Source of the DNA: an uncultured bacterium
GTDB lineage: Bacteria > Elusimicrobiota > Elusimicrobia > Elusimicrobiales > Elusimicrobiaceae
NCBI GenBank assembly: GCA_949291365.1
Contig: CASEVJ010000005.1
Coordinates: forward strand, 186,001-250,000
Direction of reading: 5' to 3'
DNA: 64,000 nt
Both the position numbers and the translations under genes were made by a program. Below, piece after piece: positions 951 through 19,475 of this stretch (position 1 is its first letter; each line of letters opens with the position of its first letter). Below the pieces are notes generated by a model, which did no database searches, was not told the origin of the DNA, and saw nothing but the letters and a program-made list of their open reading frames with translations.

Positions 951-1145
951 TTACTGGCGGCAGATTTCTTTATAGGCCGCCAGCGCACGCAGGTTTTGCA
1001 GATTAAGCCCTTCCACTCCCGCGTCTGCGTAGTCAAACCGCACACGGCACACCGCCGCATTACTTCTGACCGCCGCGCACCCGCTCAAGGCACTCATCAC
1101 GCCCCCGCACAGCATAATCAGCCATAATGTTATCCACTTGTGCAT
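951..1145 (-). CDS. Outer-membrane spanin subunit (Rz1-like lipoprotein)
   Basis: A 64-residue protein with a lipoprotein signal peptide: a Lys near the N-terminus, a hydrophobic stretch and the lipobox SALSGC, so the mature protein would start at Cys22. It overlaps the 3' part of the inner spanin gene in another frame over 1060-1145, the embedded Rz/Rz1 arrangement typical of tailed phages. It would span from the outer membrane to the inner spanin and fuse the membranes at the end of lysis. It is the last gene of the lysis cassette and of the virion module. The family was recognised from size, lipobox and gene overlap, not from sequence identity. Confidence 0.75.
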   Translation of the reverse strand: MHKWITLWLIMLCGGVMSALSGCAAVRSNAAVCRVRFDYADAGVEGLNLQNLRALAAYKEICRQ

Positions 1146-1269
1146 TTTCTTTTTCCCGCGCTTTCAGCGCTTGGTTTTGCGCGCTTTTGCGTCCGGCGCG
1201 GTACATGACCGCGCCAAACGCCCAAAGTCCGCCGCCAACCGCCGCTACCGTAAGGGCTGTCCACATCAT
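1060..1269 (-). CDS. Inner-membrane spanin subunit (Rz-like)
   Basis: A 69-residue protein with one N-terminal transmembrane helix (about residues 3-24, small and aromatic residues) followed by a charged helical tail rich in Arg, Lys and Glu. This is the topology of an i-spanin. Its start overlaps the holin stop by 4 bases (ATGA), indicating translational coupling. The outer spanin gene overlaps its 3' end in a different frame. At 69 residues it is shorter than most Rz proteins. It would work with the 951-1145 product. Confidence 0.7.
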   Translation of the reverse strand: MMWTALTVAAVGGGLWAFGAVMYRAGRKSAQNQALKAREKENAQVDNIMADYAVRGRDECLERVRGGQK

Positions 1270-1454
1270 TTCCCTTTGCCTACAACGGAGCCGTCGGGAT
1301 TAACCAAAGACAGCGCAGACAGCACCGTCAGGATTTTGGCCCACACCGTGTCATCTTTCTGCGTAGCGGTTAGCTTCACTACCGCTGATACCGCCATCAC
1401 TACCCCGCCAATAATGGCCAGGACATCGTCCCAATGCGTTGTTATCCATTCCAT
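1266..1454 (-). CDS. Small membrane protein, probable holin
   Basis: A 62-residue protein with a strong Shine-Dalgarno (AAGGAG). A hydrophobic helix (about residues 10-29, DDVLAIIGGVVMAVSAVVKL) and a second weaker hydrophobic segment (about 39-51) flank a charged turn. Size, topology and the position directly between endolysin and spanins fit a phage holin that permeabilises the inner membrane. No specific holin family was recognised. Confidence 0.65.
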   Translation of the reverse strand: MEWITTHWDDVLAIIGGVVMAVSAVVKLTATQKDDTVWAKILTVLSALSLVNPDGSVVGKGK

Positions 1455-1456
1455 GT

Positions 1457-2157: not shown

Positions 2158-2407
2158 GGCCTCCCCCTTCCGCTTTCTGCAAGTCCAGTCCCGCAAGAGC
2201 CGCCTCTAATGACGGATAGGCAAAATACCCCCGCTCCTGCGGCGTGGGCACATACCTCTGCACAACCTTGCCCTCTGCGTCCAGCGTTTCCTGCGGCGGG
2301 AACACCACCTCGTTGCACACCAGCAAATTGCAACGGTTTCCCTTTGCGTCCACATATTCGCCCTGCTCATCAAAACACACTTTGTAAAGCATTTGTTTTT
2401 CGCTCAT
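2150..2407 (-). CDS. Phage hypothetical protein downstream of the tail fibre
   Basis: An 85-residue acidic soluble protein with a good Shine-Dalgarno (TAGGAG). Its position directly after the tail fibre gene is where tail-fibre assembly chaperones are often encoded, but no chaperone motif is recognised. It overlaps the following gene by 8 bases. The function is unknown. Confidence 0.6.
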   Translation of the reverse strand: MSEKQMLYKVCFDEQGEYVDAKGNRCNLLVCNEVVFPPQETLDAEGKVVQRYVPTPQERGYFAYPSLEAALAGLDLQKAEGGGHE

Positions 2408-2416: not shown

Positions 2417-4690
2417 CTATCTCGTTACCGTCCAGCCCTTATCTGTGGCAATAGCCAGCTGCTCGGAAGTAAGTGCCGCAGCACCCGTCGCCCCAGTGAT
2501 ATTGATTACTTGGCCCGCTGTTACCGTGGGTAAACTGTTAAACAGCGCCACTAAAGCATTTTGGTCAAGGCCCGTATAAGATACATTGATTTGCGGAGCC
2601 GACGCATAATCAAACGGAGCTTTCTGACTCACTAGCAGCTGTTTAATCCCGTTTATGGGATATTGAGATGTCCCATATATACCTAATCGCTTTAACTGTG
2701 TCGCATATCCAAAATCCAAATATGTATCTTTAAGAGATACAGCATTGCTTATAAAAGGATATGCCCTTTGGCAATCAGTCATATCTACTTGGGGCAATTC
2801 TTGTAAAGACTGGGCATTATAGAGGAAATTATCTATAATGTATCCGCCGGCTGCCGCAGCATCACATCTTAATATAACTTCGTCAAGTTCTATTTTCCGC
2901 AAAGCAGTATTGTTTGAAAAAAGAGCGTTAACTTGACTGATAATTCCGTTTTTTATCTTAATTTTTTTAAGACCATTAGTATTTAATGCTCCTACACCTG
3001 CCATAGTTTGACCGCCTAAATCTAATGTAGGGATAAAAGTACAATTAGAGTAGAAGGAATACAAATCAGAACCTTGCCCTAGCATTTGCACAAAAGAAGA
3101 TACTTTAATAGACTCTGCCGCACAAGTTAATGCGGTAAAATTTTTGTTTAGTACAGAATTATATTTAGCAAAAGCGCTTTCCAAACCAATGGCCTGCAAA
3201 CTATTAATATGACACCACAAAACACCTTGCTCTTCTCTACCGCTAGAAGCCACACGTGCGCTCGTATAAGCCGAAATAGTATTTCCGTAAGTAGCAGGCA
3301 CAATTTGCACGATATGCGCAGTTAATACTTCGGGCTGGGTTACACTAAAACCCGCCGTAGCCGAATACTGGCTCCACGTAATAGAACATTGTGCGCCGGA
3401 AGCGTACGTGTCGCCATATTGCACCCCGTCAACAAAGACGTTGTACCCCCCTTCACAAGTGGCTGCAAAGCCCAAATTGTAATAAGCGGAATAATCTGAT
3501 TTTACTCCGGCAAGCAGAATAATAGCATTAGGCCGCGCGGCAGGGCGGATATCGGGCCAGCCATAATCCTCTGGGTGGAAGTCCCCGTCGTTCTGTTTGC
3601 GCTCCAGCGCGGCATTGATGTCGGAAATATCGGAGTTGATGTCTGAAATTTCGGCGTCCACGTCTGCGCTATTTGCTTTCAAATCCAGCGCCGCCTGCGC
3701 GGCGGCAGAAACGGGCTTGTCCGCATCAGCCGTATTATCCACATTTCCCAGCCCTACCTGCACTTTAGTTACCGCGTGCGGGTTGTCCGTGCGGGCCGTA
3801 TGCGCCGCCAAAGCCGTTTGCTCCGCTTTGCTAGAAAGAGCCGTGCGGATATCCGCGTGCGCCGCAGTGCTTTGATTATGCGCGGCAATATCCGTGCCAA
3901 TTTTAGTGCGTATGTCCGTGTGGGCTTCCGTATCTGCATTATGAGTTGCAACCATACTCTGCGCTTCTGCGGCAGAAGCGGCCGCCGCTTGGGCGCTTTG
4001 CTGTGTTTTTGTTTGGCATTGCTGGGCGGTTGCTGCGGCGGTTTGGGCAGACAATACAGAGTCACTGATAGTTGCAAGAGATTGCGTCAGCGTAGCTATA
4101 GCCGTCTGCGCTTCCTCTTTTGCTTCTTCTGCCCCTTGGGCATGCCCTGCCGCACTTTGCGCCGAAGCGGACGCAGTTGCGGCAGATTGGGCGGATTGGG
4201 CCGCATGGCTCTGTGCCTGGGAAGCGGCTGTCTGCGCCGTGGAGACGCCGTCCGTAATTGCTTGCAAATAGCCGGCGGCGTCCGTTTGGCTGGCGGAAGA
4301 GGAAAGCGGAAATTTAATCGCCCGGCTTAATTGCTCGGCCTGTTCCTGGGCAATCATCATCGCTTTGTCATATCCTTCTTCCAGCACAAACGGGTCAAAA
4401 GACTGCTGCGCGTCAAATTCTGTTTGCTGGGCCAGCGGGGTACTGCGCAGAATTACCAGTTTCTGCCCGGACGAAAGCGGGGGTATTTGGCTGCCTGAGA
4501 GCGGATAAGTCAAGCTCTGTAAACTGGGGTCTATGCTGAAATTGCCGGATAATTTTTGCTCTGTTCCGTCCGCCTGCACCACATAGACCTGCACATCGTC
4601 TGCATGTATATAGGGGAAAGGAATGTCCCACTGTGTGGTCTGTCCGTTGCCTTGGTAAATTACTTTTGCCTGTGAATAGGAAACCGTCAT
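2417..4690 (-). CDS. Tail fibre with T7-type N-terminus and leucine-rich (BspA-like) tip
   Basis: A 757-residue protein. Residues 1 to about 130 resemble the T7-type tail-fibre attachment domain (SYSQAKVIYQGNGQTTQWDI, ending FDAQQSFDPFVLEEGYDKAM). Residues about 140-370 are an Ala/Gln/Ser-rich coiled-coil shaft with a phage tail repeat (NPHAVTKVQVGLGNV). Residues about 390-757 look like an irregular leucine-rich-repeat surface domain and end EQLAIATDKGWTVTR, as in BspA-like proteins. The DNA of the tip (about 2640-3300) is visibly more AT-rich than the shaft, suggesting the receptor-binding tip was acquired separately. It overlaps the upstream gene by 4 bases (ATGA). It would bind the host surface. 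Confidence 0.85.
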   Translation of the reverse strand: MTVSYSQAKVIYQGNGQTTQWDIPFPYIHADDVQVYVVQADGTEQKLSGNFSIDPSLQSLTYPLSGSQIPPLSSGQKLVILRSTPLAQQTEFDAQQSFDPFVLEEGYDKAMMIAQEQAEQLSRAIKFPLSSSASQTDAAGYLQAITDGVSTAQTAASQAQSHAAQSAQSAATASASAQSAAGHAQGAEEAKEEAQTAIATLTQSLATISDSVLSAQTAAATAQQCQTKTQQSAQAAAASAAEAQSMVATHNADTEAHTDIRTKIGTDIAAHNQSTAAHADIRTALSSKAEQTALAAHTARTDNPHAVTKVQVGLGNVDNTADADKPVSAAAQAALDLKANSADVDAEISDINSDISDINAALERKQNDGDFHPEDYGWPDIRPAARPNAIILLAGVKSDYSAYYNLGFAATCEGGYNVFVDGVQYGDTYASGAQCSITWSQYSATAGFSVTQPEVLTAHIVQIVPATYGNTISAYTSARVASSGREEQGVLWCHINSLQAIGLESAFAKYNSVLNKNFTALTCAAESIKVSSFVQMLGQGSDLYSFYSNCTFIPTLDLGGQTMAGVGALNTNGLKKIKIKNGIISQVNALFSNNTALRKIELDEVILRCDAAAAGGYIIDNFLYNAQSLQELPQVDMTDCQRAYPFISNAVSLKDTYLDFGYATQLKRLGIYGTSQYPINGIKQLLVSQKAPFDYASAPQINVSYTGLDQNALVALFNSLPTVTAGQVINITGATGAAALTSEQLAIATDKGWTVTR

Positions 4691-6273
4691 TTTTTATTCT
4701 CCTGTAAAAGAAATAATTGTTTGGCTGTTTGGGCCGCCTGGATTTGCTGTGCCACATCTTCCGAAGAAGTAAACACAAAATAGCGCAATTCATCGCTTTG
4801 CTGGGGTGTAAGCTCCTGCTGGCGGCAGAAAAGCGCCAAGCCCTGCTCCAGCAAGCGTACGCGTGCGTCATAATCGCCGGATTGGGCGGCGCAAGAGCGG
4901 GCCTTCAGGCGCCAAAAATCCGGCGCAGAAAGCTCCCCGCTTTGCAAGGATTTTTCCAGTTCCTTCTCATTGAGTTTGCCGTTTAAAAGCCCTTGGTACA
5001 GGCGGTTGAACACCGCGGCGGAAGATTGTTTATTGGCTGTTTGCTGCCACTGGCGCAACGCCCGGCAATTGGTTTCAAAATCCGCCGTGCTGAAGGCATC
5101 GTCTTTCATCAGGGCCGTCAAATCCGCCCCCTGCGGCGCAGCCAACAGCCGTTCATACCCGGCGCGGCGGCGGCGCAGTTCCAGAGAGCGGCTTTGGGCC
5201 AGCCGGGCATTCAAAGCGTCCGCCAACTGTTGCTGAAAGGCCGGCGTCTGCCTCGGAGCGGCGCGGCGGGCAAACTCCACCAGTGCTTTTTCCTCTGTTT
5301 CCCCCTGCTCACCCGTACAGGCCGCACGCGCCGCCGGCCAAAGTTTCTCCCCCAGCATATCCGCCTGGCGGGCCGTCAGTTTATGCGCTAACAGTTCCTG
5401 TTGCTGCGGGGGCAGCTCTTTGGCAAAATGCCGGTACACCGATTGGGCCCGCTCCGTCTGCCCCGCTTCCAGCGCCGCCTCCACATTATGGCGCACCGCC
5501 TGCCAGCGCAGGGCCCGGCTCTGCTGCTGCCACTGCTTTTCATCTACGCCGGCAGAGCGGGCTTCTTGGGCCGCGGCAGAAAGATTGCTTTGGATATAGC
5601 TTTCTAGTGCACGCGGCGTAGGCACCAGAGCCGCTGTTTGCACAAAACTGTAAGCCCCCTGCCGGATATTCTCCTGCTCCTGTGTACGGCGGCTTTTTTC
5701 TTCCAGCTCCTGCACTTCACGGCGCAAGAGAGCGTAATCCTGCGTAAGCAAATTATCCGTCTGCGGGGCCGAAATGTCAGAAAGCCCGCCGATAAGCAAA
5801 GCAAAATTTTCATCCAGCCGCTGCACGGCTGTTTGAGCGCCGGACGTCCGGGATTGCTCGGTTGGTTCAAGGGCAGTCTCAAAGGCCTTTTCCCGCGCAA
5901 ATTGCAGTAAACTGCTGCGCAGCGGAGAAGAAAACTTCCCCACGTTTTCCGCCGCGCCGTCATCAGCTCCCGCCGCAGACGGCCCAGCCGCTTGAGAAGG
6001 AGCCGTTTTCTGCCGGGGCTTGTTTTTTCCGGCAATCTTTTCCTGCAGGTCGGCCCATTCTTTTTCCCATTCTTTCTGGGCCGCGCCGAAGGCATTTACT
6101 GTCCGGTTAACAGCACCGGGCAGTGCATAGAGGCCGCCCAGCACTCCGGCGGCAGTCTGTACGTCCGTCCATTCTTTGTTGCCGGACGCTTCCCGCAAAG
6201 GCCGCGCCAACAGCACATTGGAGGCGCGGGCTTTTTCGTAACTGATTTGGTTTTGGTAAACAGGTACTTTCAT
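4687..6273 (-). CDS. Internal virion / DNA-ejection protein
   Basis: A 528-residue soluble protein rich in Gln, Ala, Glu and Leu and almost entirely predicted helical. It sits directly between the small virion core protein and the tail fibre, the slot of T7 gp15-type internal core proteins. There is a clear Shine-Dalgarno (AAGGAG). A low-complexity Ala/Pro/Gly linker lies at about residues 85-115. No transglycosylase motif is seen, and no large gp16-like protein follows. The assignment rests mainly on gene order. Confidence 0.65.
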   Translation of the reverse strand: MKVPVYQNQISYEKARASNVLLARPLREASGNKEWTDVQTAAGVLGGLYALPGAVNRTVNAFGAAQKEWEKEWADLQEKIAGKNKPRQKTAPSQAAGPSAAGADDGAAENVGKFSSPLRSSLLQFAREKAFETALEPTEQSRTSGAQTAVQRLDENFALLIGGLSDISAPQTDNLLTQDYALLRREVQELEEKSRRTQEQENIRQGAYSFVQTAALVPTPRALESYIQSNLSAAAQEARSAGVDEKQWQQQSRALRWQAVRHNVEAALEAGQTERAQSVYRHFAKELPPQQQELLAHKLTARQADMLGEKLWPAARAACTGEQGETEEKALVEFARRAAPRQTPAFQQQLADALNARLAQSRSLELRRRRAGYERLLAAPQGADLTALMKDDAFSTADFETNCRALRQWQQTANKQSSAAVFNRLYQGLLNGKLNEKELEKSLQSGELSAPDFWRLKARSCAAQSGDYDARVRLLEQGLALFCRQQELTPQQSDELRYFVFTSSEDVAQQIQAAQTAKQLFLLQENKK

Positions 6274-6282: not shown

Positions 6283-6795
6283 TTAATAACCGTTCCCGGA
6301 AAATAAGCCGCCCAGCGCACTGCCCATTTGCGACCACAAACTCGGGCGCAGCCGGTTGGCGCGGCGGTATTGCTGGGCTTGCGTACGGTACTGCTGGGCC
6401 TGCAAGCCGGCGGTGGTGTTATTTTCATATAAAGCACGCTCCATATTTTCGTTGAGCATTTCCTGATCCAACAGCGCATTCAAGCGGCTGTTTTTTAAAA
6501 TCATCTGCGCCGTAGCCGACGACCGGGTAAGCCCGCTGGCGGCCAGGGCGGTTTTCTGCTGGCCCTGCAGCGCGGCATAACTGCGCATCAATTGGCTGTT
6601 CTGGTAGCCGGCATCCTCAAAAATATACGTTGCATTACGGCGGGCAGTTTCTTCCAGTTGTTTGGCCTGCGCATCGGCCGTAGCGGCCATGGACTGATAA
6701 TAGTCCTTCTCCGCTTTGTCTTTTCCCAGTAATGCGGCGGCGGTAGACAAAATCGTTCCGCCGCTAAATAATACGCCTCCTATGGCTCCTCCCAT
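6283..6795 (-). CDS. Small virion core protein (T7 gp14-like position)
   Basis: A 170-residue protein starting with a Gly/Ala-rich hydrophobic segment (MGGAIGGVLFSGGTILSTAA), then a long Gln/Ala-rich helix (ATADAQAKQLEETARRNATY) and a Gly-rich end. This pattern is typical of the small ejection or core proteins of podoviruses that form a channel in the host envelope. It has a strong Shine-Dalgarno (AAGGAG) and overlaps the preceding gene by 16 bases. Confidence 0.65.
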   Translation of the reverse strand: MGGAIGGVLFSGGTILSTAAALLGKDKAEKDYYQSMAATADAQAKQLEETARRNATYIFEDAGYQNSQLMRSYAALQGQQKTALAASGLTRSSATAQMILKNSRLNALLDQEMLNENMERALYENNTTAGLQAQQYRTQAQQYRRANRLRPSLWSQMGSALGGLFSGNGY

Positions 6796-7310
6796 ATTTT
6801 TTTCTCCTTATTGGTGAATATACGCCCCGGCGGGGCGGCAAAAACATACGCAAGAAAGCGGGTTTCTTCTCCCGCCAAATAAAACGGGGCCGCAATCCGG
6901 CGCGCGCCCAAACGCTCCAAGTAACGGCGGGCCTGCGTGTAGCGCTCATCACACGCCGCATACAAAAAGGGATACAACCCTCTGAACTGTGCCACCACGG
7001 CCCGAGACGCCCACCAAAACTCCTTGGGGCAATGCGCTACTTCTTCCCCCGTCCACGACCATACACACGCGCGGCTGCCCAGGCAGGTTTGCCCCTGCAC
7101 GCCGGCCGCGGCAACCGGGCGCCCCCGGTACAGCAGGGCCACCGCCCGTGAAGATAAACGCCAACACAGCTCCAGCCCCTCCCGCGCCGGCAAACGGTAC
7201 GCGGCCCACATTTCCGCCCTGTCCTGCTCACGCAAAGAGCGGGCAAGCCCGTCTAAATGTTCTTTACAAAGCGGCTCTAAACTAATATCATGAGAAAAGG
7301 AATTTTTCAT
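6780..7310 (-). CDS. gp13-like virion-associated protein with acetyltransferase fold
   Basis: A 176-residue protein resembling the T7 gp13/DUF2833 group of phage proteins with a degenerate GNAT fold: ALLYRGRPVAAAGV, then a hydrophobic core FLYAACDERYTQARRYLERLGAR, where a GNAT acetyl-CoA loop would sit. The start at 7310 is chosen because the longer frame would run into the divergent gene at 7331. No Shine-Dalgarno is seen upstream. It probably acts in virion assembly, not as an enzyme. Confidence 0.6.
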   Translation of the reverse strand: MKNSFSHDISLEPLCKEHLDGLARSLREQDRAEMWAAYRLPAREGLELCWRLSSRAVALLYRGRPVAAAGVQGQTCLGSRACVWSWTGEEVAHCPKEFWWASRAVVAQFRGLYPFLYAACDERYTQARRYLERLGARRIAAPFYLAGEETRFLAYVFAAPPGRIFTNKEKKIWEEP

Positions 7311-7330
7311 CTTTATATAAGGAGCCCAGC

Positions 7331-8140
7331 ATGGCAACAGGTATAGTCATCGTCGTTGGTTTGATAGTAGCGGCCATTTTATATGGCATTTTCTTTTTGT
7401 TTTTCAAATTGATTTGGATTTTATGCAAAAAACAGCGCAATTTCTGGCCGCTGGTTTTGGCAGGGGTTGCCACGGTACTGACCTTGGCGGCTACGGTGTA
7501 TATGGCAGTATATACCGCCAAAAAATTTATCCAGCCCTTTGCGCCCATTATAGAGACAATGGCCACTCGCACGGAACCGGTATATGGCCCGCAGCCCTAC
7601 ACAGACCCGCGCTATGGCTTTAGCATAACGCTTTATAACGGAACGGTATTAAGCGAATGGATTGACTTGGGAACGGAAAATTATTTAGTTGGTTTTGACA
7701 CAAACCCATTTGTCGGTCTCTCCGCAGACAGACAAAGAGATCCCGAACAGCCCATCACGCTTTATCTGATTGTGCGGCAGGAAGGAGCGGATACAGACGC
7801 CCCGGCTATAGACTTGCTCAAAGATGTCATTAACACAGCCGGACAAATGGATTTTGACGGAGAAATAGATTTTGACAATCCGCAGCCCGCTTACGCCGGC
7901 CCCGGCGCCACCGCGGCAAAAGTCAACGGCAACTTATATACCGCCTCTTCCCAGGAAGGGATTGCGTTTGCGCTGTTAATGGCCAAACAGGGCACCGTGT
8001 TATATTACGTCATAGGCGGCAGCAACGAAAGCCAGGACGAAATTTACCAAACGGTGGAAAGCTTCCGTACAGAAGCCCTCTCCGCAGGGCAAGAGCCCGC
8101 TTTGCCGGCGCCTGCTCCGGCGGCAGATACCGCCGGCTGA
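7331..8140 (+). CDS. Two-helix membrane protein inserted in the phage module (cargo gene)
   Basis: A 269-residue protein on the strand opposite to the surrounding virion genes, with a good Shine-Dalgarno (AAGGAG) and its own terminator (8171-8200). It has two transmembrane helices (about residues 5-29 and 40-60), an outside domain of about 170 residues and an Ala/Pro-rich tail. The family was not recognised. It separates the gp12-like and gp13-like genes, which are normally contiguous, and leaves only 20 bases to the divergent start at 7310. Independent transcription inside a late operon is the hallmark of a moron. A role in the host envelope (exclusion or fitness) is inference. Confidence 0.8.
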   Translation: MATGIVIVVGLIVAAILYGIFFLFFKLIWILCKKQRNFWPLVLAGVATVLTLAATVYMAVYTAKKFIQPFAPIIETMATRTEPVYGPQPYTDPRYGFSITLYNGTVLSEWIDLGTENYLVGFDTNPFVGLSADRQRDPEQPITLYLIVRQEGADTDAPAIDLLKDVINTAGQMDFDGEIDFDNPQPAYAGPGATAAKVNGNLYTASSQEGIAFALLMAKQGTVLYYVIGGSNESQDEIYQTVESFRTEALSAGQEPALPAPAPAADTAG

Positions 8141-8170: not shown

Positions 8171-8200
8171 GCGCCCGGTTTAGCGCCGGGCGCATTTTTT
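8171..8200 (+). terminator. Terminator of the plus-strand cargo gene
   Basis: Stem GCGCCCGG / CCGGGCGC with a 7-base loop, followed by ATTTTTT on the plus strand. It overlaps the stop codon of the convergent gp12-like gene. Confidence 0.85.
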
Positions 8201-10805
8201 AGCAAAACTGCGTAATGACAGCCAACAGTGTCAGTGGCAGCGGGTCGGCCTGCACTAATGTAACCGACGGGAAATAGCTATGCGCCGCGGGCAACACTTT
8301 GACATAATCACGCGTCTGCAAGGCCGCCGGCGCTGCATAGGTGGGTGCCGGGTCAGCAAGCAGGGCGTCAAGTTTGCCACCGGCTATACCTATCTGCCCG
8401 CCGCGGCTGTCCATCACTTTAAGCAGAACTTGCACGGGGCGGCGTTTGCGGTCTTGCTGGGTACCGTCAGTAAACGAATAATCCGGCGGAAGCGTCTGCA
8501 ACGTGGCCTGATAAGCCAGCCCGGCATGAACGGTATTGGCAGAGCGGGGCAATAGTATTTTTCCGCTGTTTACCGTCAGTTCTCCCAGCGGGCTGCCGTC
8601 TGCCAATACGCTGACGGCCCGGCCCTCCAGGTGCTGCAGGCCGCCCAACTCTGTAAAAGCCGTATCGCTTTTTTTAGACACACTGCAATCCAAAAAGACC
8701 TGGTCTTGCGGGGCCTTGCTGGTCAGCCGCGGCAACAAACGCTCTATGCAGCGCACGCCGTCCCTGTCCACCAGCAGCCAGGTTTCGTCGTATCCGCGCG
8801 AAGGAATGCTGCATACGCTGATAAACGAGCCCTGCGTTTCATGCTGCGTCCAAGCCAACATATCTTCCTCCGGCAAATACGTAAGCGAGAGCAAACTGCC
8901 GTCTGACAGCACACACCAGATTAAATTATCGGGCTCCTGCTGATAGGCCATTTCCTTAATTTCCAGATTGAAAAATAAATGCCGCGCCCGCAGCGTCAAA
9001 TCCCGCCCCGTATAAGAAGCGGTGCTGTACTGGTAATAAAAATCCCGCAGTACACTGCCGCGCGACTGCACAAACAGCGTACGGTTTCCCACCACTATCG
9101 GCGCTACGCGGCTGGCGCCGCGCTCCCCTTCCTGATGTATTTCTATATTGTAAGGGGTCAGCGCGCCCGAACAGCCCAAGCTCCACTCGCTCCCGGCAGT
9201 AAACACCAGCAGTTTGGCCCCGGCGGCCACGGAGTTGATGGCATTTAATTTTTTGCCGGAAAGGGTTAAGCTGATAGCGTCGGAATCTTCCAGCGTACGC
9301 AAATAACCAAAATCCTCATACTCCCCGGTTTTGGAAAACCAAATGGTCTGCGGTTCTTTTTTACTGCCGGCAAAACCCAGCCGGTCTTGGTAAAAGAATA
9401 CACATGAGGGGTAGCCGGCGTCTGGGCTGAAAGACCCTTCCGACCAGTCGGACGTCCAGCTTTCCTCCTCCGCCAAAAACCGCTCTATGCTTACCTGCAT
9501 TTTACGTGCATTGACGTAATTTTCCGCCTTGACGATGCCTTCCTGCTCAAAGGCCTCCGCCTGCAGTACATAGCCCATTTCGCCGGAAATGCCCAAACCG
9601 CGTACGCGCAGAAAATGCATTTTGGCCGAAGGTTCCAAACTGCCCACCGAGCTGATATTTTCTTCTTCCTGGGCTTTGGTAAAATGCTTGACCTTTTCCC
9701 AGGTTTCGTTGTCTTCGGAAGCTTCCAGCACGATTTCTCCGTACCAGCTTCCGGTTGTGCGCAAACTCCAGTCTCCGCCGGTTTTGACCACTTTGGACAC
9801 GCCTTCATAGGACAGCGTGCCGCTTTCAGAGGGGCTTTCCACCCGCTGGCGCAGCGCAAACAGCGCCCCTGCATGCCCCGGCCGAAACGCGTCAAAATCC
9901 GCTTCCAGATACCATTGGGTTTCCCCTTGGCTGATAATCTCCCCGGCGTTGCAGCCGCCGCTCATCACCTGTGTGACCACCAGCTCCGGCGGGGCCACCA
10001 GCCCCACCCGGTAATAAATCATCAGCTCGGCCCCGTTGTAATCTCCGCCGGTTTCTTTCGGCGATTCTATGCGCAAAACTCCGCCCTGATTATAGGCGTG
10101 GCAGCCGTCGGAACTGCAATAGGTATTAAACGCATTTACCACGTCCTGCACATCAAAGCCGTAACCGTTGGGATTATAAAAATGCTGCCCGCGCCAGAAG
10201 GCCTGTATAAAATAATTAGGATAACTAACCGGCAAAAAAGACAACGTCGCCCGCACCCCCTCCGACACGACGGTATCATTCGTGCTCACCAGACGCAGCT
10301 TTTTAGCGGAATCGGTATTGGCCAGCATAAACGGCCCGTCTTTAATCTGCAAATCGGATAAACTAAAGTAGCCGTCGTCTGTGCGCAGTAGTTTTTTGGG
10401 ATAGTACCCGGGGTGCACCAAAAACAGCGTCTGCTCATATTGTACATACTGAATATCCTGCAAGTCGTTTTCCCCGTAAGGACACTCCAGCTCATACACC
10501 GTGCCATCCAGCTTCAGCATTGTCCCCACCGCGGTATGCACACGCAGGTATTGGTGTCCAAACTCCAGCACATAGGCCTCTTCCTCACCCAACACAAAAG
10601 GAATCAGGCGTGCCTTTTTGTCTGCATATTTGGCGCTGGCCACATAAGCCGTGCCCGGGCGGTTGGAAGCGCCGCCCTGCGGGTGTACAAAGAAGTTGCA
10701 GGCCCGTTTCAGCCAGGCGCCTTCCCCCTGGGCCGCGGCGTGAGTATAAAGGTGCGGGCTGATTTCCCCTCCGGAAAAATTCGTCTGTATAGCATGTACC
10801 GGCAT
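8199..10805 (-). CDS. Tail tube/nozzle protein (T7 gp12-like)
   Basis: An 868-residue structural protein. The N-terminus (QTNFSGGEISPHL, then NFFVHPQGGASNRPGTAYVA) is the characteristic opening of the large podoviral tail nozzle proteins (tail tubular protein B type). The body is beta-rich, with WTQHETQG and similar propeller-like repeats. The start at 10805 has GGAGG upstream and follows the gp11-like gene by one base. It would form the distal tail tube attached to the gp11-like gatekeeper ring. The length is typical for the family. Confidence 0.82.
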   Translation of the reverse strand: MPVHAIQTNFSGGEISPHLYTHAAAQGEGAWLKRACNFFVHPQGGASNRPGTAYVASAKYADKKARLIPFVLGEEEAYVLEFGHQYLRVHTAVGTMLKLDGTVYELECPYGENDLQDIQYVQYEQTLFLVHPGYYPKKLLRTDDGYFSLSDLQIKDGPFMLANTDSAKKLRLVSTNDTVVSEGVRATLSFLPVSYPNYFIQAFWRGQHFYNPNGYGFDVQDVVNAFNTYCSSDGCHAYNQGGVLRIESPKETGGDYNGAELMIYYRVGLVAPPELVVTQVMSGGCNAGEIISQGETQWYLEADFDAFRPGHAGALFALRQRVESPSESGTLSYEGVSKVVKTGGDWSLRTTGSWYGEIVLEASEDNETWEKVKHFTKAQEEENISSVGSLEPSAKMHFLRVRGLGISGEMGYVLQAEAFEQEGIVKAENYVNARKMQVSIERFLAEEESWTSDWSEGSFSPDAGYPSCVFFYQDRLGFAGSKKEPQTIWFSKTGEYEDFGYLRTLEDSDAISLTLSGKKLNAINSVAAGAKLLVFTAGSEWSLGCSGALTPYNIEIHQEGERGASRVAPIVVGNRTLFVQSRGSVLRDFYYQYSTASYTGRDLTLRARHLFFNLEIKEMAYQQEPDNLIWCVLSDGSLLSLTYLPEEDMLAWTQHETQGSFISVCSIPSRGYDETWLLVDRDGVRCIERLLPRLTSKAPQDQVFLDCSVSKKSDTAFTELGGLQHLEGRAVSVLADGSPLGELTVNSGKILLPRSANTVHAGLAYQATLQTLPPDYSFTDGTQQDRKRRPVQVLLKVMDSRGGQIGIAGGKLDALLADPAPTYAAPAALQTRDYVKVLPAAHSYFPSVTLVQADPLPLTLLAVITQFC

Positions 10806-10806
10806 A

Positions 10807-12179: not shown

Positions 12180-12557
12180 TTACATATCGGTATCGTCTGT
12201 AATAAACAGCGATATTTTGCCCGCCGTCGCCGTACCGCTGACGGTATAATACCCGCGGATATAGCGCAGAGCTCCCGACGGAAGAACCATTTTAAACAAC
12301 GGTTTTCCCTTTTTTAAATCCGCCAAAACGAACGTAGCAGAAAGCAATTCTTTTGCCTGTCCAAAAGTATTGCTCTTATCGGTTTGCAAGCTGATTTTCA
12401 AGCTGGTCAGCCCGGCAAAATCTTCGTCGGTCTGGGCAACCGCTACCAGACGGTGGTGCGCATCTGCCGCAGCCGTCTGGTCAATGATGTGTTCAGACGC
12501 GGCAGAAGCGGTAAGGGCCTGTTGGTCTGAAAGCACTAACGTAGAATCAATTAACAT
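12180..12557 (-). CDS. Capsid cement protein, Bbp16-like
   Basis: A 125-residue beta-rich protein beginning MLIDSTLVLSDQQALTASAA and ending FITDDTDM. This matches the layout of Bbp16-family cement proteins of Bordetella phage BPP-1 relatives, encoded immediately after the major capsid gene. It has a strong Shine-Dalgarno (AAGGAG). It would trimerise on the capsid surface and stabilise it. The family call is from recalled sequence pattern and order. Confidence 0.75.
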   Translation of the reverse strand: MLIDSTLVLSDQQALTASAASEHIIDQTAAADAHHRLVAVAQTDEDFAGLTSLKISLQTDKSNTFGQAKELLSATFVLADLKKGKPLFKMVLPSGALRYIRGYYTVSGTATAGKISLFITDDTDM

Positions 12558-12738: not shown

Positions 12739-13716
12739 TTAAGCCACCACGTCCTCGGTGTCTTCAATGGCGTCACAGATATGGACGGGAATTTCGTTGA
12801 ACGTCATCAACGGGCGGGACGTAATTTGGTCGGGCGTATACTGCACGTTTTGTTTGTTGCTGGTCAGCTTGCGCAGTGCGGCCTTGACCGTGCGGTTCAT
12901 ATACCAGAAGGGTTTGCCCAAGTTCAAACTTTGAATGCGTTCTTCCAGCTCGCACATATTGTCAATCAAGCTGGCAGGCACGTTTGTAACATCAATGTTG
13001 CAAATGCGCCCCGCATAGCGCCAATCCTGCACGGCAAGCCCCATTTTCCATTCAAAATATTCCTTGTAAGCGGGGTATTCGTTGCCGTCGGAGTCAATAT
13101 GATTGACTAAACCGTGGTCTACACGCTGGATACCAGCTTTGGAACCTTTGGGGAAGAACGTGAACACTTTGTCCGTATCCCACACTACCAAATAAATGGA
13201 GGAGTTTTGCCCGTCGGTTTCACCGCCGGCGTCAATCACGTTGCGCGCGCTTTCCGCATCGGCCAGCGTATTATAACGTGCGGCCAAGCCGGTAAAACGT
13301 TCCGGCGTTTCCCCGGCGTTGCCGTAAATCAAATTGCGCGCCATGGTGTTAGACATACCCGCGATAATGGCTTTGCTCTGCCCGGTGCGCACGGACTGCA
13401 GGTTGCCTCCCTTTTCTGCGATAAGTTTATCCACCACGGAATAGGCAGAGAGCGTGCCGTAGCTTTCCACCACCACTTTGGTAGTGGCTTTGGCTGGCTC
13501 AATGCCTTGGTAGGCGCGGCGCCAGGTGCCTTCAGGGATACCGGTGCGCACGGCGTATTCGTGGCCGCTGTCTAAATTGCTTTCTGTCACCAGGGCATCT
13601 CCGATGATGTCATTGGATTTGCTCAAGACCTCTGCAATCGCCAGCTCCTGGCCGGACTGGTCAAACTGCTTGGCATAATCCATCAGGTTGTAATATTTAT
13701 CTGCAATAATTGCCAT
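12739..13716 (-). CDS. Major capsid protein (BPP-1 Bbp17-like, HK97 fold)
   Basis: A 325-residue protein. The N-terminal half (YNLMDYAKQFDQSGQELAIA, then NDIIGDALVTESNLDSGHEY and RTGIPEGTWRRAYQGIEPAK) is characteristic of the Bbp17-type major capsid proteins. About 325 residues is the usual size. The Shine-Dalgarno AAGGA lies upstream at rather long spacing. It is flanked by the scaffold upstream and the cement protein downstream, the standard order. It would form the icosahedral shell. Confidence 0.88.
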   Translation of the reverse strand: MAIIADKYYNLMDYAKQFDQSGQELAIAEVLSKSNDIIGDALVTESNLDSGHEYAVRTGIPEGTWRRAYQGIEPAKATTKVVVESYGTLSAYSVVDKLIAEKGGNLQSVRTGQSKAIIAGMSNTMARNLIYGNAGETPERFTGLAARYNTLADAESARNVIDAGGETDGQNSSIYLVVWDTDKVFTFFPKGSKAGIQRVDHGLVNHIDSDGNEYPAYKEYFEWKMGLAVQDWRYAGRICNIDVTNVPASLIDNMCELEERIQSLNLGKPFWYMNRTVKAALRKLTSNKQNVQYTPDQITSRPLMTFNEIPVHICDAIEDTEDVVA

Positions 13717-13765: not shown

Positions 13766-14371
13766 TTACTGCGCTTTTCCGTACAACGCCTCGGCAAAAG
13801 TTTTGTCCGCCGCGGCGCGCACGCGCCCGGAAACGGATGTATCTTCTGCGATTTGTTTACTGATTTGATGAAACGTCTTTACCACCGTCGGATGACTGCC
13901 CAGCCCCGTAGCGTCCAGCAGTGCACGCAGCTCCGGCCCGCCGAAACGCTCCGCCGCTGCCAATGCGCGGGCCACCTCCTGCCGGTACCCCGGGCCAAAA
14001 AGGGCCTGCGTTTGTTCCGTCCAGCGCTGCAAAATCTGCTCCCGCGCATATTGCGCGTTTTGCCGTCCGTTCGCGGCAGCTTTGCTTTCCCACTCCACCA
14101 GTTTTTGTACGGTTTGGAACGGGAGCTTCAGTTCTGCTGCCAGCTGTTTAAACTGTGCAAAATTTTCTTCGCAGCCGCTTAACTCTTCCGGCAATTTCAG
14201 GTCTGGGTATTCACCGGCAGGCAAAGAAGTTTCCACCGGGTTATTTTCGTTTGGCCTATCGGCGGCAGAGCCATTCTCTGTGCCGCTGGGCCCGGGGCAG
14301 ACTTGTGCAGTCTGCGCCGTTTGCAAATCGGGTTGTGCCGCCTGGGAAGCGGCTTTATTTTCTTCAGACAT
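13766..14371 (-). CDS. Capsid scaffolding protein
   Basis: A 201-residue acidic protein. It has a low-complexity Ala/Gln/Pro N-terminus (about residues 1-55), a helical middle (FAQFKQLAAELKLPFQTVQK) and a C-terminus with KTFAEALYGKAQ. This composition and the position directly before the major capsid gene are typical of podoviral scaffolds. The ATG at 14371 has GAGGA upstream and overlaps the Bbp19-like gene by 8 bases. Confidence 0.78.
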   Translation of the reverse strand: MSEENKAASQAAQPDLQTAQTAQVCPGPSGTENGSAADRPNENNPVETSLPAGEYPDLKLPEELSGCEENFAQFKQLAAELKLPFQTVQKLVEWESKAAANGRQNAQYAREQILQRWTEQTQALFGPGYRQEVARALAAAERFGGPELRALLDATGLGSHPTVVKTFHQISKQIAEDTSVSGRVRAAADKTFAEALYGKAQ

Positions 14372-14672
14372 TGTGCATTTCCTCGCTTTGGCGGTCAATT
14401 TCGTTCTGCTGGGAAGTAACTTCCGACAAATACTCCGCCTGCATCTGCGCCAAAAGCAGCGGCGAAATTTCCGCAATTTGTTCCTGCAAAAAAAGACCAA
14501 TGCTCTTCTGTCCGCAATGAAACGCGGTGGCGCATGGATCCCCGGGCACAAAACCGTGCCCGTTTACTTGGGCTGCCTGCAGCACACGCCACAGCAGCCG
14601 TCTGCCTTGCGGCAGTTTCAGCACGGCGGCCAAATCGGCCGCGTTGCGTTTTTCTAATGTTTTTTTCTTCAT
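14364..14672 (-). CDS. Bbp19-like phage protein
   Basis: A 102-residue protein with the pattern DLAAVLKLPQGRRLLWRVLQ, then CATAFHCGQKSIGLFLQEQI and a helical end. This is the signature of the small Bbp19 domain found between portal and scaffold genes in BPP-1-like phages. Its role is unknown. ATG 14672 is preferred over a TTG 12 bases upstream; neither has a good Shine-Dalgarno. Confidence 0.7.
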   Translation of the reverse strand: MKKKTLEKRNAADLAAVLKLPQGRRLLWRVLQAAQVNGHGFVPGDPCATAFHCGQKSIGLFLQEQIAEISPLLLAQMQAEYLSEVTSQQNEIDRQSEEMHNV

Positions 14673-14744
14673 AATGTTTGGCAAGCAGACTACTGAAAGG
14701 AGCCGTTTAGCACCGCCGACAGGTTTTATTCATCGGGCTTGCCA

Positions 14745-14960
14745 TCAGCCCCTGTAAAACAGCTGGGGCCAAGGGAGAACGTCCGGTTCGTTCTCCCCCG
14801 CCTCTGCGCGGGGGCGTACGGTAATTTCAGACCACCCTGCCGCGCAGCTTTGTTTGAAAAAGTCCCACAGGTTTTGGCTCTTACGCCGGGAAACCGTTTT
14901 GTATTTTTTACATCGGACAGCAAGTGTTTCTTTTTTGCCGCCAGGCCGCTTGTTACGCAT
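14745..14960 (-). CDS. Small hypothetical phage protein following the portal
   Basis: A 71-residue protein whose ATG (14960) overlaps the portal stop codon by 8 bases, filling the gap before the Bbp19-like gene. The N-terminal third is strongly basic (MRNKRPGGKKETLAVRCKKY). The C-terminal part looks folded (SQNLWDFFKQSCAAGWSEIT) and ends acidic then aromatic (DVLPWPQLFYRG). The tight overlap and sensible composition support a real gene, but no strong Shine-Dalgarno is present. The function is unknown. Confidence 0.55.
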   Translation of the reverse strand: MRNKRPGGKKETLAVRCKKYKTVSRRKSQNLWDFFKQSCAAGWSEITVRPRAEAGENEPDVLPWPQLFYRG

Positions 14961-16524
14961 TGTCTGCCGCAGCGGCCTGGGCCTGCAACAGCTGCTCACG
15001 CTGGGAACGGAGCTGGCGCGTTTCTTCGTCGGAGCGGAGCACCCGTGGGGAAACGCCCAGCATATCCAGTCCTTCTTCCAGTGCCGCGTCAAAATTAATT
15101 TTGTCCAATACCTGCGGATTGCCCTGCGCCAAGCTGCTGGTAAACGCTATCCCTTGCTGTAAAGCGCTCATACCGCTCTGTTTTTGCGCCTGTGCAATCA
15201 AAGACACATACTGCACCTTCATCTCCTGCCCCTGGACGCAAGCCGGCGGCAGCGGCACTACCCCACGGCGAAACATAATGGCAAAAGTACGCTCAATCAG
15301 CGGGTCTAACAATTCGTTTTTCAGCCGTTCCAACACTGGCCCCAGCACCAGCATTTTTTCCTGGTGGCGCTCGGCCACTTCGGTAGCAGTCATGTTGGAA
15401 AAATTCTGCGCGCTGATCATCAAAAATACATCGGCAAAAAACTGGCTCTTGATGGTTTGCTTGACCCGTTCTATGCTTTGCTCCAAGGCATTTAAGTCCA
15501 CCGGCACTTGGTAAGCGGGCTTGACGGCCGCGTCGGCACCGCTGCCGCTGTAGCGCGTCAAGCCGCCGGGCAGCAGGTTTACCTCTCCCTGCACATTGGC
15601 AGACACCATCATCGGCGGGTTCGTGTTTTTGTCCAGCGCCACCAGTTTGGTCTTCTGCATTTTTTGCAGCATTTTCACATCACCCAGCGCTTTCCAGCCC
15701 GGGCCGCGCCCGTAGATATCGCTGCTGCTACGCACTTCCCAGCGGGCGGCAATTACCGGAAACTCGCGGTATCCGCCGCGGCGCAGCAGCTGGCCCTGCG
15801 GGGTAAAATAAGCAGAGATATAGGGCATATAAGCCACATCTAATTTATGCGCATCGGCCTGCGGATTGGGCACAATCACATGCAACACTTTACACCAGCC
15901 ACCGCGTTTTTCCTGCGCCGCACGGCGCACAGAGAGCGGCAACGCGTCTAATCCAAATTGACTTTGCATTTGGGCAGGCGTCATCCAAAACTCCCGTCCA
16001 AAGCTGTTTACGCGGCCTTTTTCGTCACACTCCAGCACATATTCCCCAGCGGTAAACGCCCGGCAGGACACCACCCGCTCCGGGTCTTCCTCCAGCAAAA
16101 AGGCCGCCGTGCCGAAAACGGCAATTTCCTGATAAAACCCGTGCAGGGTATTATAAACATTCGAGCGGGAAAACACCTCTTCCATGCGCCGGCGCACTTC
16201 ATGCAGCCAGGCGCGCACGCCGTGCTGTTTCATTTGTTGGCTGTCGGAAAGGGAAAGCTCAAACCAACTGCGGCTGGGGCTGGTCAACCCGGAAACCATG
16301 CCGGCGCTTAAAATTTCCACCGCCAGCAGCGGGTCTGAATCTATCAGCGTGCGGTGGTCAATTTTGCGCCCGTCGCAGGGGCGGTCTCCGTCAAAAAAAC
16401 CGCGCGTAGGCGCAATGTATTTGGCCAGCTCTTTCCAAGCGCTTTGCCAATCCTGGGCCTGCGTTTTCATCTCTTCGTAACGAGTGCGGAAAAAATCCGC
16501 CTGTTGCATATCATTTGCGTTCAT
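14953..16524 (-). CDS. Portal / head-tail connector protein
   Basis: A 523-residue protein of the podoviral head-to-tail connecting family. It opens with RTRYEEMKTQAQDWQSAWKE, then LAKYIAPTRGFFDGDRP and AGMVSGLTSPSRSWFELSLS, the recognisable N-terminal motif. The C-terminal segment (Gln/Ala rich, TRQLRSQREQLLQAQ) fits a barrel helix. The length is close to T7 gp8. It would form the dodecameric DNA entry and exit ring. The Shine-Dalgarno is AGGTGA. A consensus promoter lies at 17115-17143, about 570 bases upstream. Confidence 0.88.
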   Translation of the reverse strand: MNANDMQQADFFRTRYEEMKTQAQDWQSAWKELAKYIAPTRGFFDGDRPCDGRKIDHRTLIDSDPLLAVEILSAGMVSGLTSPSRSWFELSLSDSQQMKQHGVRAWLHEVRRRMEEVFSRSNVYNTLHGFYQEIAVFGTAAFLLEEDPERVVSCRAFTAGEYVLECDEKGRVNSFGREFWMTPAQMQSQFGLDALPLSVRRAAQEKRGGWCKVLHVIVPNPQADAHKLDVAYMPYISAYFTPQGQLLRRGGYREFPVIAARWEVRSSSDIYGRGPGWKALGDVKMLQKMQKTKLVALDKNTNPPMMVSANVQGEVNLLPGGLTRYSGSGADAAVKPAYQVPVDLNALEQSIERVKQTIKSQFFADVFLMISAQNFSNMTATEVAERHQEKMLVLGPVLERLKNELLDPLIERTFAIMFRRGVVPLPPACVQGQEMKVQYVSLIAQAQKQSGMSALQQGIAFTSSLAQGNPQVLDKINFDAALEEGLDMLGVSPRVLRSDEETRQLRSQREQLLQAQAAAADNA

Positions 16525-16646
16525 AAATCACCTGTATATTAATTTTTCACTTCACGGAAATCATCATGCAAAGCGTCCAAAATTTATTAGTGTATAAGCA
16601 GAACAAGAAATATAGGGTATATACCGCTATATGGCAGGAGGGGTTT

Positions 16647-16826
16647 ATGGGGAGCATTATTGTTATTTTGGTATTTGCCGCATTGGTGGCTTTCCCGGGG
16701 TTTTATATTATCACCCGCAAGGTGTTTAAAGGCGGCAGCCGCAAGGCGGCGTTAGGTTTGTCTGCCTTGGTAACACTGCTGTTAATAGGTATACTGGCGG
16801 CGGTAATGGCGGGCACACCGCTGTAA
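16647..16826 (+). CDS. Small two-helix membrane protein (plus-strand cargo)
   Basis: A 59-residue protein starting at ATG 16647, chosen because a strong AGGAGG lies 8 bases upstream. There are two hydrophobic helices (about residues 3-21 and 37-57) separated by a basic loop (RKVFKGGSRKAA). It lies opposite to the phage operon between portal and large terminase genes, antisense to the leader driven by the 17115-17143 promoter. The family is unknown; it may be a moron such as an exclusion or antiholin-like protein. Confidence 0.65.
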   Translation: MGSIIVILVFAALVAFPGFYIITRKVFKGGSRKAALGLSALVTLLLIGILAAVMAGTPL

Positions 16827-16859: not shown

Positions 16860-16973
16860 GTGCCGGTGGACATATACGGCACCCAAGAAATGTTGATGTA
16901 TGTCCAGAAACGGGTGGGTAAAGAGCTGAAAGAATTAGAAAATTTAAATTTACCAGGGAACGGGCCGGGTTGA
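16860..16973 (+). CDS. Possible 37-residue peptide
   Basis: A GTG at 16860 has GGAGAGG six bases upstream and gives VPVDIYGTQEMLMYVQKR, then a Lys/Glu/Leu helix, ending at TGA 16973. It follows the 59-residue membrane protein by 33 bases and may be co-transcribed. The helical, charged composition is plausible but such a short frame can arise by chance. Confidence 0.35.
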   Translation: MPVDIYGTQEMLMYVQKRVGKELKELENLNLPGNGPG

Positions 16974-17415
16974 AAACAAAAAGAAAATAATCGCCGCTTA
17001 CGCATCAGTGCGGCCCCACACCACCGCCAAGTCAGAAGCCGCCAAAGAGCCGCAGAATAGAGCCCACATGCACAGCCCCGCACAACAGCCAAAGGCAGCA
17101 GCAACTATAGGGGCATTATAGCATAATTTGTAAGTTTTGTCAATATTTATTGTTAGTATTTTTTTATTTCTTCTTCTAAAAAATATTTTTTTACATTAGC
17201 AAAAGTTTATTTATAATAAGTTTTACAGCTGCCATTTTCTCTATTTTAAGTCCCTAATAATTCGTGTTTTCCCCCTGCTCTGCCGCTTCTTTCCCGCACC
17301 AATTTAAAACCCGGCTGGCATGGCGTTATTTGTTTGCGGTGTTGTATATTTTTTTGTTTCACCCTATGCACCTGATACAGCCGGATCAGCGTGCCATGCA
17401 TGGCCATAGCTGCTG
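16974..17415. other. Non-coding leader region between portal and terminase genes
   Basis: About 440 bases without a convincing gene. It contains a strong minus-strand promoter at 17115-17143 and an AT-rich stretch (about 17125-17270). Confidence 0.6.
17115..17143 (-). promoter_or_regulatory. Consensus promoter upstream of the portal operon
   Basis: Reading the minus strand: TTGACA (17138-17143), a 17-base spacer ending TGC, and TATAAT (17115-17120). It is nearly the same element as the terS promoter at 19584-19612. Both -35 and extended -10 match the housekeeping consensus exactly. Confidence 0.75.
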
Positions 17416-18735
17416 TTAAAGCACTTCATATTCCGTACGGGCAAATTCTCCGCCGGGGCGAACTGTTTTATGCACCGGCAGGGCAAACGTCAGCGCCAGC
17501 GCGTCTGCCAAATCCGGGCTGCGGCCGCTGCGGGCTTTCAGCTCTTCTTTACTCTCCAGTTTCAAACGTCCGGCGGCATCAAAATGATAACGTATGCCGC
17601 ACAAATCCGCCTTCAGCTCTGCCAGCGGCGGAAGCGCCCCTCCGCCTTGCAGCCAGGCACGCATTTCCCCCCACATTTCGGCGCGTTTATTGGCGTATTG
17701 GGCGGGCTTTAGCGGGGTGGAGCCAAAATGAATTTCCGTCACGCAAAACCCCAGCTGCCGCAACCGGTCTATCACACCGCCGCCGCAGCCGGCATCTATG
17801 AACACCGCGTCCGGGCGGAAACTTTCTATGCTCTGTGCCGTGCGGGCCGCCAGCGTCATTTGGTCGGTTTTGCACAATACTTCTGGTGCAAAGGCCTGCA
17901 ACCCCTGCCGCCTAAAAATAACACTGCGGTCTGCGCCAAACCGGGCCGGGTCTACGCCGATAATTTTAGGCGCGTGCGCTATTTCTGCCATGCCATATTG
18001 CCGCGCACACGCCTGCGACACCAAAGAAGAAGCCACCAGCACGTCTTCTGCATCGGCAGTAAAATCACACAAATATTCCTGACGGAACAAATGCTCCGGG
18101 GTGCGGCGGCGTATCTGTTCTAGCTCCGCCGCGTCAATGACACCCGTTTCATCGGCGGGAAATACGCCGCACCACCAATTTTGCGCCTCCTCCCGGGCGG
18201 CTTTTAGCGCATAATTATACAGTTCATAAAATTGATTTTGCCCTTTGGGCGTACCCGTAAACAATACCCAGCCACCGCGCGAAAGAAGCATAGGCCGCAC
18301 GATTTCATCAAACACATCGGGCTTGATTTGGGCATATTCGTCCAGCACCACGCCGTCGGCATAGGTGCCGCGCAGGGCGTCGGGGTTATCCGCCCCCAGC
18401 AACCATATTTTGGCCCCGTTGGGCAATTGCACAAGCAGTTCCGTCTCCGAAAGTTTTACCCCCGGCAGCGGCGCAGAGAACCGTTTGACATAATCCCAGG
18501 CAATCAGCTTGGTCTGCTTTAAAAACGGGGCAATATAAAAATAGCGCGGCGCCGGACGGGGGCACAACAGGGCGCTCTTAAGCAAATGATTTACCGCGCA
18601 TACAGTTTTACCCATCTGACGGTGCGTAACCAGCACGCAAAAGCGGTGCGTTTCCAGCGCCTGATGAATAAGCGGCTGCGGATAACGCGGCTGATAAGGA
18701 ATAACTACAGCGGAAGAGATTTGTTTGCGTTTCAT
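17416..18735 (-). CDS. Large terminase subunit
   Basis: A 439-residue DNA-packaging motor. Walker A-like RQMGKT is at residues 39-44, Walker B VVLDEY at about 129-134, and the coupling motif TGTPKG at about 160-165. The C-terminal RNaseH-like nuclease has Asp residues at IIGVDPARFG (about D262), VFIDAGCGGG (about D314) and near SPDLADALALTFA. All key residues appear intact. The ATG at 18735 overlaps the terS stop (ATGA), so translation is coupled. A longer TTG start at 18747 is possible. It cuts concatemeric DNA and pumps it into the prohead. Confidence 0.92.
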   Translation of the reverse strand: MKRKQISSAVVIPYQPRYPQPLIHQALETHRFCVLVTHRQMGKTVCAVNHLLKSALLCPRPAPRYFYIAPFLKQTKLIAWDYVKRFSAPLPGVKLSETELLVQLPNGAKIWLLGADNPDALRGTYADGVVLDEYAQIKPDVFDEIVRPMLLSRGGWVLFTGTPKGQNQFYELYNYALKAAREEAQNWWCGVFPADETGVIDAAELEQIRRRTPEHLFRQEYLCDFTADAEDVLVASSLVSQACARQYGMAEIAHAPKIIGVDPARFGADRSVIFRRQGLQAFAPEVLCKTDQMTLAARTAQSIESFRPDAVFIDAGCGGGVIDRLRQLGFCVTEIHFGSTPLKPAQYANKRAEMWGEMRAWLQGGGALPPLAELKADLCGIRYHFDAAGRLKLESKEELKARSGRSPDLADALALTFALPVHKTVRPGGEFARTEYEVL

Positions 18736-19475
18736 TCTTTTTCCCAACGGACTACCAACGGGCGCGGAGCGGAAGCGGGTTCATTTTTTCCGTCGCTCCA
18801 TCCTAAAATATTTTTAGCCGTAAACATGGCAAAAGATGCAGAATAATTGCCCCGCAAACTATTTTGGATTAAAATATCTCCCTGCAAATCACGCGCTTTT
18901 TTGGCGGCCTCGGCAAAAGAGGGCTCTCGCTCTTCCCATTCCAACAGCACCTGCTGCGTCACGCCCAAACTGCGTGCAAATGCCGCAAAAGTGGGCAGCT
19001 CCGCCGCCGTTTCTAGTAGGGAAATGGAGCCGTCCTTTTTGATTACCTCGGTCACTTTAAAAGGAGCCACGTCAAAAAACGCCAGCAGCTGTTCACTGTA
19101 CTGCGGGCGGAACTGGGGCACTGCCCGGGTGCGGCGGCGCTTTGCAGAGGTGGTTTTACGCTTTTTTGCGGGAGCCAAAGACGCGCGCCGGGCCGGATCA
19201 GAAACAGGCGCTACGGCAGACTCATTAGAAACAGAAACCAGAGTCGCCGGGCTTTTTGCAGAGGTGGTTTTGCCCTTTTTAGCGGATTTGGCAGGCAGGA
19301 GAGGGCTGCTTACTGTGTTTATGTCCGGTGAGAGCCCATCAGCCACGGCTTGAGCCAACGGCGCGACCCCAGCAGACGCTATTACCCCCCTTGCAACGGA
19401 CGGGCAGACATTTTGCTCCGCTTTTTCCGCGACGGCAGCCGGCACTGGGCCGGCAGAAATAGATTTTTTATTCAA
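18732..19475 (-). CDS. Small terminase subunit
   Basis: A 247-residue protein. The C-terminal half fits phage small terminases: helix-turn-helix LPTFAAFARSLGVTQQVLLE followed by FAEAAKKARDLQGDILIQNS, and then SFAMFTAKNILGWSDGKNE. The N-terminal 120 residues are low-complexity, Ala/Ser/Lys rich, with two AKK..KTTSAK repeats (about 64-73 and 102-112) that may bind DNA non-specifically. The start is TTG at 19475 with TAGGAG six bases upstream. It is the first gene of the module, behind the promoter/operator at 19552-19612. Confidence 0.82.
   Translation of the reverse strand: MNKKSISAGPVPAAVAEKAEQNVCPSVARGVIASAGVAPLAQAVADGLSPDINTVSSPLLPAKSAKKGKTTSAKSPATLVSVSNESAVAPVSDPARRASLAPAKKRKTTSAKRRRTRAVPQFRPQYSEQLLAFFDVAPFKVTEVIKKDGSISLLETAAELPTFAAFARSLGVTQQVLLEWEEREPSFAEAAKKARDLQGDILIQNSLRGNYSASFAMFTAKNILGWSDGKNEPASAPRPLVVRWEKE

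Follow-up and report, generated by a model that had tools for sequence, protein, structure and literature searches.

Why does a bacterial chromosome carry a complete set of phage virion and lysis genes with no early genes beside it? The window that raises this question, 64,000 nucleotides from an uncultured member of the Elusimicrobiaceae (assembly GCA_949291365.1, contig CASEVJ010000005.1, positions 186,001 to 250,000), has the complete late region of a short-tailed phage at 951–19475 on the minus strand, a single locus of ~18.5 kb (hereafter the module), as seen from open reading frames (ORFs) and PHROG and Pfam profile searches. An initial annotation, made from the letters of the window, had described a virion and lysis set in canonical order, bounded by host pilin and pilus genes, with no integration, repressor, replication or Cas-type genes between 776 and 20144. 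The order was borne out by the ORFs and profile matches, the flanks are indeed a pilin and a type IV pilus operon, and no integrase, repressor, primase, polymerase or Cas gene was found in that interval. Two explanations had been left, a prophage deletion product or a domesticated particle resembling a gene transfer agent (GTA). The second held up, the module being genus-wide, intact, inherited with its host and under purifying selection; a recent prophage deletion product was rejected because of the genus-wide intact conservation. We consider it likely that the module is a domesticated DNA-packaging particle of the GTA type, independently derived from a podophage; judging from its genes, it would package random host DNA and transfer it to recipients.

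The whole host genome holds one TerL and one such capsid gene, and its only two tyrosine recombinases are of XerC/XerD size and lie on other contigs; no early phage genes were found in any orthologous locus. A prophage would be expected to be sporadically distributed and to carry integration or early genes, which is not what we observe, and a capsid-encoding phage satellite would combine an integrase and replication genes with an incomplete virion set; the module has a full tail set and neither of those gene types. What it does have is the gene content of a GTA: tailed-phage genes for virion, packaging and lysis, and no phage replication or integration genes. Inserts of 2–11 kb between portal and TerL in some congeners were considered as a hiding place for an early region and rejected, since they encode arrays of paralogous ChaN/Tiki-like proteins with signal peptides (PF04187 at 6e-4, below the curated cut-off). 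Up to eight of these paralogous secreted proteins are encoded there, on the module's strand (G021, G035, G029, G003 and G094).

The portal gene was present in 62 of the 66 congeners and in 35 of the 36 good-quality genomes (one of the 35, G083, with a fragment only), and the capsid gene in 54 of the 58 congeners sampled, at 84–100% identity; the named records of the genus are gut or rumen Elusimicrobium, UBA1436 and Candidatus Avelusimicrobium metagenome-assembled genomes. A chicken-caecum Elusimicrobium isolate, An273, is also on record (PMC6069880). The capsid gene was not detected in 16 listed genomes of other genera of the same family. All 29 capsid orthologues that were measured have exactly 325 aa, and in the 30 loci examined the genes were collinear with the same strand pattern; TerL of G012, at a short contig, is the one core ORF not of full length. 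Mis-assembly was rejected on the strength of the same arrangement in 30 genomes. The comparison of conservation and synteny at the same site that the initial annotation had proposed thus came out in favor of a retained element, genus-wide, collinear and mostly intact.

The chromosomal site is also shared. In 17 of the 17 genomes with uvrA and the module on one contig, the two are no more than about 106 kb apart. An O-antigen-ligase-like gene (Pfam Wzy_C) is the neighbor of the module's pilin in representatives of every main clade, the window's genome included. The order in G035 is ligase-like gene, pilin, module, MATE-type, FtcD-type and KsgA-type gene (flanking gene names other than Wzy_C were assigned by reading the sequences); the sister-genus genome G097 has the ligase-like gene, one unrelated gene, then the MATE/FtcD/KsgA-type genes, interrupted by a single additional gene; this equivalent site is free of phage genes. 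In other sister-genus genomes the ligase-like gene adjoins the pilus operon, the same operon that flanks the module on the right in the clade of the window. Some clades have the ligase-like gene in inverted orientation, a sign of rearrangement in the neighborhood; the location is nevertheless shared, and the module sits at a single ancestral site. What borders the module on the right differs between clades: a putative metallopeptidase and the type IV pilus operon (window 20144–24125 and beyond) are found there only in the window's clade.

For 25 species we compared a host tree from uvrA and gyrB (chosen because rpoB and rpoC were missing from several assemblies) with a module tree from the tail tubes, cement, portal and TerL, leaving out TerS and the scaffold, because automatic ORF starts for the scaffold were unreliable. 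The two gave a Mantel r of 0.90 (0 of 2000 permutations) and shared 16 of 22 splits. Pairwise Nei-Gojobori ratios of nonsynonymous to synonymous rates (dN/dS), approximate because many dS values were near saturation, stayed below 0.36 for every module gene (TerL and portal 0.04–0.10, capsid 0.05 or less), compared with 0.02–0.09 for the host genes uvrA and gyrB; no value for any module gene suggests relaxed constraint. This check had likewise been proposed at the outset for TerL and capsid, and it found purifying selection on the particle genes, as for GTAs, beside the long vertical inheritance with the host at a conserved location that also marks them. These comparisons show that the module is inherited vertically with its host under purifying selection. 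An ordinary defective prophage, a deletion product in the course of being lost, would account for the absent early region, and three congeners described below (G030, G083 and G147) show that pieces can go, but genus-wide retention, intact ORFs, low dN/dS, the host-congruent tree and the constant neighborhood all speak against it, and we find it extremely improbable.

Several points weigh against a GTA-type particle. Some conflicts between host and module trees remain: the best-supported host split missed by the module is one deep node, and the conflicting module splits have support of 84–89. G030 has the structural genes but no TerL, TerS or plus-strand genes; G083 is without capsid, a cement fragment abutting a portal fragment while TerL is full length; and G147 has no capsid or portal (lacking everything), nor ComEC. 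Parts having been lost in these few congeners, the module is not strictly essential. No particle, transcript or packaged DNA has been observed, and most of the compared genomes are metagenome assemblies, in which some absences may be assembly gaps. The exceptions in G030, G083 and G147 are decay or gaps.

TerL (17416–18747, minus strand; phrog_2 at 2e-52) had been said to have intact-looking active sites, and its motifs, which from knowledge of the family we take to be of Walker and nuclease type, are invariant in 20 species. TerS (18732–19475, minus strand; phrog_3064 at 8e-18) was modeled with a disordered basic N-terminal tail of ~115 aa and a confident core containing a beta hairpin and a helix-turn-helix-like pair. 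The best structural match of this core was P22 TerS (Z 7.5, root mean square deviation (rmsd) 5.0, 114 aligned) and the next Sf6 TerS (Z 6.9, rmsd 4.1, 86 aligned), both well above unrelated matches; P22 and Sf6 are headful phages. According to the model, the core of TerS is still of the P22/Sf6 type, has a helix-turn-helix-like segment and may bind DNA. A domesticated particle might instead serve altruistic lysis, DNA release or competitor targeting, with DNA packaging incidental, as the complete lysis cassette, interchangeable endolysins and fast-evolving fiber would allow. However, few module genes are as constrained as TerL and portal, and all TerL motifs are invariant, which would be unexpected if packaging were dispensable, and no toxin cargo gene was recognized in the operon; we think this use unlikely.

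Expression of the module may be gated. Searching the 1.39 Mb genome for the perfect sigma-70 promoter pattern TTGACA-N16-18-TATAAT, with the reversed pattern as control, we found five perfect promoters and zero occurrences of the control. The module has two of these, both TTGACA-17-TATAAT on the minus strand: P1 (19584–19612), directed towards and lying before terS, and P2 (17115–17143), likewise before portal; most species have the same pair. P1 leads straight into a hairpin and then a run of six to eight T (23 species; hairpin plus U7 at 19545–19580 on the minus strand of the window). Its core pairs are nearly invariant across the 23 species and other stem pairs covary (for example C-G, G-C and A-T at one position), while loops vary in length, some variants are G-U and one inner position is mismatched in a few species. 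Given the varying loops and compensatory changes, an RNA terminator within the transcript's first ~45 nt is a better fit than an operator of fixed spacing, and for the same reasons a DNA operator palindrome is less likely. From the fit to a terminator we propose an antitermination gate. Perfect promoters are absent from G030, the congener without TerL: at its locus (L148-L149), TerL, TerS, both plus-strand membrane genes and the perfect promoters are jointly missing, which suggests that they act together.

The history and mode of action that we propose are as follows. The ancestor of this gut Elusimicrobiaceae genus would have received, in a single integration near the O-antigen-ligase-like gene, a podophage of the BcepC6B/BPP-1 type. 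That phage would then have lost its early region, its packaging, head, tail and lysis genes being kept by the bacterium as a host-owned particle. The hairpin would normally halt transcription started at P1 and so keep the operon silent, until in some cells a signal brings about antitermination and high-rate read-through. The P22/Sf6-like terminase would then fill heads with chromosomal DNA in headful mode, because no phage genome is replicated, and the spanin/holin/endolysin cassette would lyse the producer cell. Relatives may take up the DNA by way of the fiber and tail, possibly with the competence (ComEC) machinery; ComEC is intact in 65 of the 66 congeners, which is permissive for DNA uptake and no proof of it. 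That the Elusimicrobiota hold an independent, genus-wide GTA lineage from a BcepC6B/BPP-1-type podophage, expressed all-or-none through P1 and a leader terminator acting as an antitermination switch, seems to us fairly probable. To our knowledge very few GTAs are known outside the Alphaproteobacteria. If the proposal is right, this would be a GTA of short-tailed origin in a phylum whose members are mostly uncultured. Evolutionary tests could draw on dozens of species, and comparisons on module-free sister genera, so that why bacteria keep GTAs and how their expression is gated could be tested outside the Rhodobacterales; it would also mean one more way for genes to move between bacteria of herbivore and poultry guts.

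The other virion genes are on the minus strand. The head genes are the portal (Head-tail_con; 14953–16524; PF12236 at 2e-160), a conserved head-module protein (14364–14684; phrog_528 at 5e-15), a scaffold/protease-family protein (13766–14551; phrog_458 at 1e-30), the 325-aa major capsid protein of the GP7 family (12739–13716; phrog_212 at 1.5e-66, PF20911 at 2e-114) and a cement/decoration-like protein (12180–12557; phrog_427 at 1e-25). In G083 (L264:500-800) the cement C-terminus lies beside the portal N-terminus, and capsid, scaffold and most of portal are gone, either really or by assembly artifact. Tail tube proteins A (10807–11394; phrog_394 at 1e-52) and B (8199–10859; phrog_376 at 2e-181) follow, then two internal virion proteins (6780–7337, phrog_308 at 4e-20; 6283–6795, phrog_418 at 3e-6), a fast-evolving 528-aa protein of internal virion/ejection type (4687–6273; assigned by position and orthologues, with no profile match) and the tail fiber (2417–4690; phrog_1640 at 9e-17), whose T7-like N-terminus is conserved and whose C-terminus is variable.

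The lysis cassette, also on the minus strand, was identified by anatomy and conservation, the endolysin alone having a strong profile match. Before it lies an ORF for a small protein (2150–2407) found also in G016 and G219. The cassette itself has a membrane-anchored coiled-coil protein (transmembrane (TM)-coiled-coil; 1846–2157) with weak phrog_739 and phrog_1193 matches; the Peptidase_M15_4 endolysin (1457–1846; phrog_465 at 5e-34, and Pfam), swapped in some congeners for an apparent lysozyme-type endolysin; a small holin-like membrane protein (1266–1454; phrog_9685 at 7e-7, a family of unknown function); and an inner-membrane spanin-like protein (1060–1269) overlapping an outer-membrane spanin-like lipoprotein with lipobox LSGC (951–1145), which has no profile match, the overlapping architecture being conserved across species.

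Two plus-strand membrane genes embedded in the module are additions to the initial list of genes, as are the two perfect promoters and the leader hairpin. The first (7331–8140) is antisense inside the virion operon and kept in 21 other species. The AlphaFold model of its 269-aa product (predicted local distance difference test 88.8) has two long N-terminal helices, which we read as TM, and a soluble domain of the PsbP/Mog1/LpqN/DcrB type that matched PsbP 2xb3 (Z 15.0, rmsd 3.1, 144 aligned); a search of a viral structure library gave low-quality matches only. The second, within the ORF at 16566–16826 and probably starting inside it, encodes a two-TM protein of ~60 aa with a PGFYIITRK motif, which has orthologues and no family match.

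Podophages related to the module reside in its host genus or are known from gut viromes. The second copies that G173 and G007 carry, and the IMG/VR contigs L124 and L125, have capsids 63–73% and portals 53–56% identical to the module's, but a different TerL (27–29% identical); they have other genes upstream of TerS, one resembling a replication organizer, and their distribution is sporadic. By these comparisons the module has phage cousins in the same hosts, with its own TerL from another lineage and a distribution like that of a host gene. Four further podophage-like regions, L121, L123, L060 (G026) and L059 (G028), with a different TerL or a distant capsid, are probably true prophages. The presence of such podophages, counting the second copies in G007, G173, G026 and G028 and L124 and L125, and the closeness of the nearest capsids and portals would suit a capsid donor or an element interfering with other mobile elements, for example by packaging or sabotaging related podophages. 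Yet the module has a full terminase and tail of its own, the nearest phages differ from it in TerL, and it is kept in genomes where no related phage was found, so that we hold such a role to be very unlikely.

How, then, does the module compare with known systems? Its gene order from TerS to the lysis genes is that of BcepC6B/BPP-1-type podophages, and the capsid of Burkholderia phage BcepC6B is 40% identical to the module's over the full length; however, BcepC6B has repressor, integrase, helicase and other early genes whereas the module is without an early region, and it has three large virion proteins after two small ones where the module has one 528-aa protein. RcGTA and RcGTA-like elements (Rhodogtaviriformidae) are likewise vertically inherited, host-congruent virion clusters under selection for which headful packaging is expected, but they are siphovirus-like and belong to an unrelated host phylum. 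RcGTA genes are spread over several loci. TerS is without a DNA-binding domain in most known GTAs (this is not in the formal definition), whereas that of the module has, by its model, a helix-turn-helix-like pair. RcGTA TerS is without such a domain (PMC11841831), and FpGTA TerS is said to have no obvious one (PMC12946183). The formal GTA families proposed in 2022 have Alphaproteobacteria and Brachyspira hosts (PMC9662315). In the searchable literature we found no link between Elusimicrobiota and GTAs. The closest known system is FpGTA of Faecalibacterium, described in 2026 as the first podovirus-like GTA-like element, whose particles have been shown experimentally (PMC12946183), whereas the module's particle is predicted from its genes. 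FpGTA comprises operons of 10.5 kb and 5.5 kb lying ~125 kb apart in a Firmicute, as against one locus in an Elusimicrobiota genome, and the two are likened by description: both have podovirus-like virion genes, span a gut genus, are without replication genes and bring their own lysis genes (PMC12946183).

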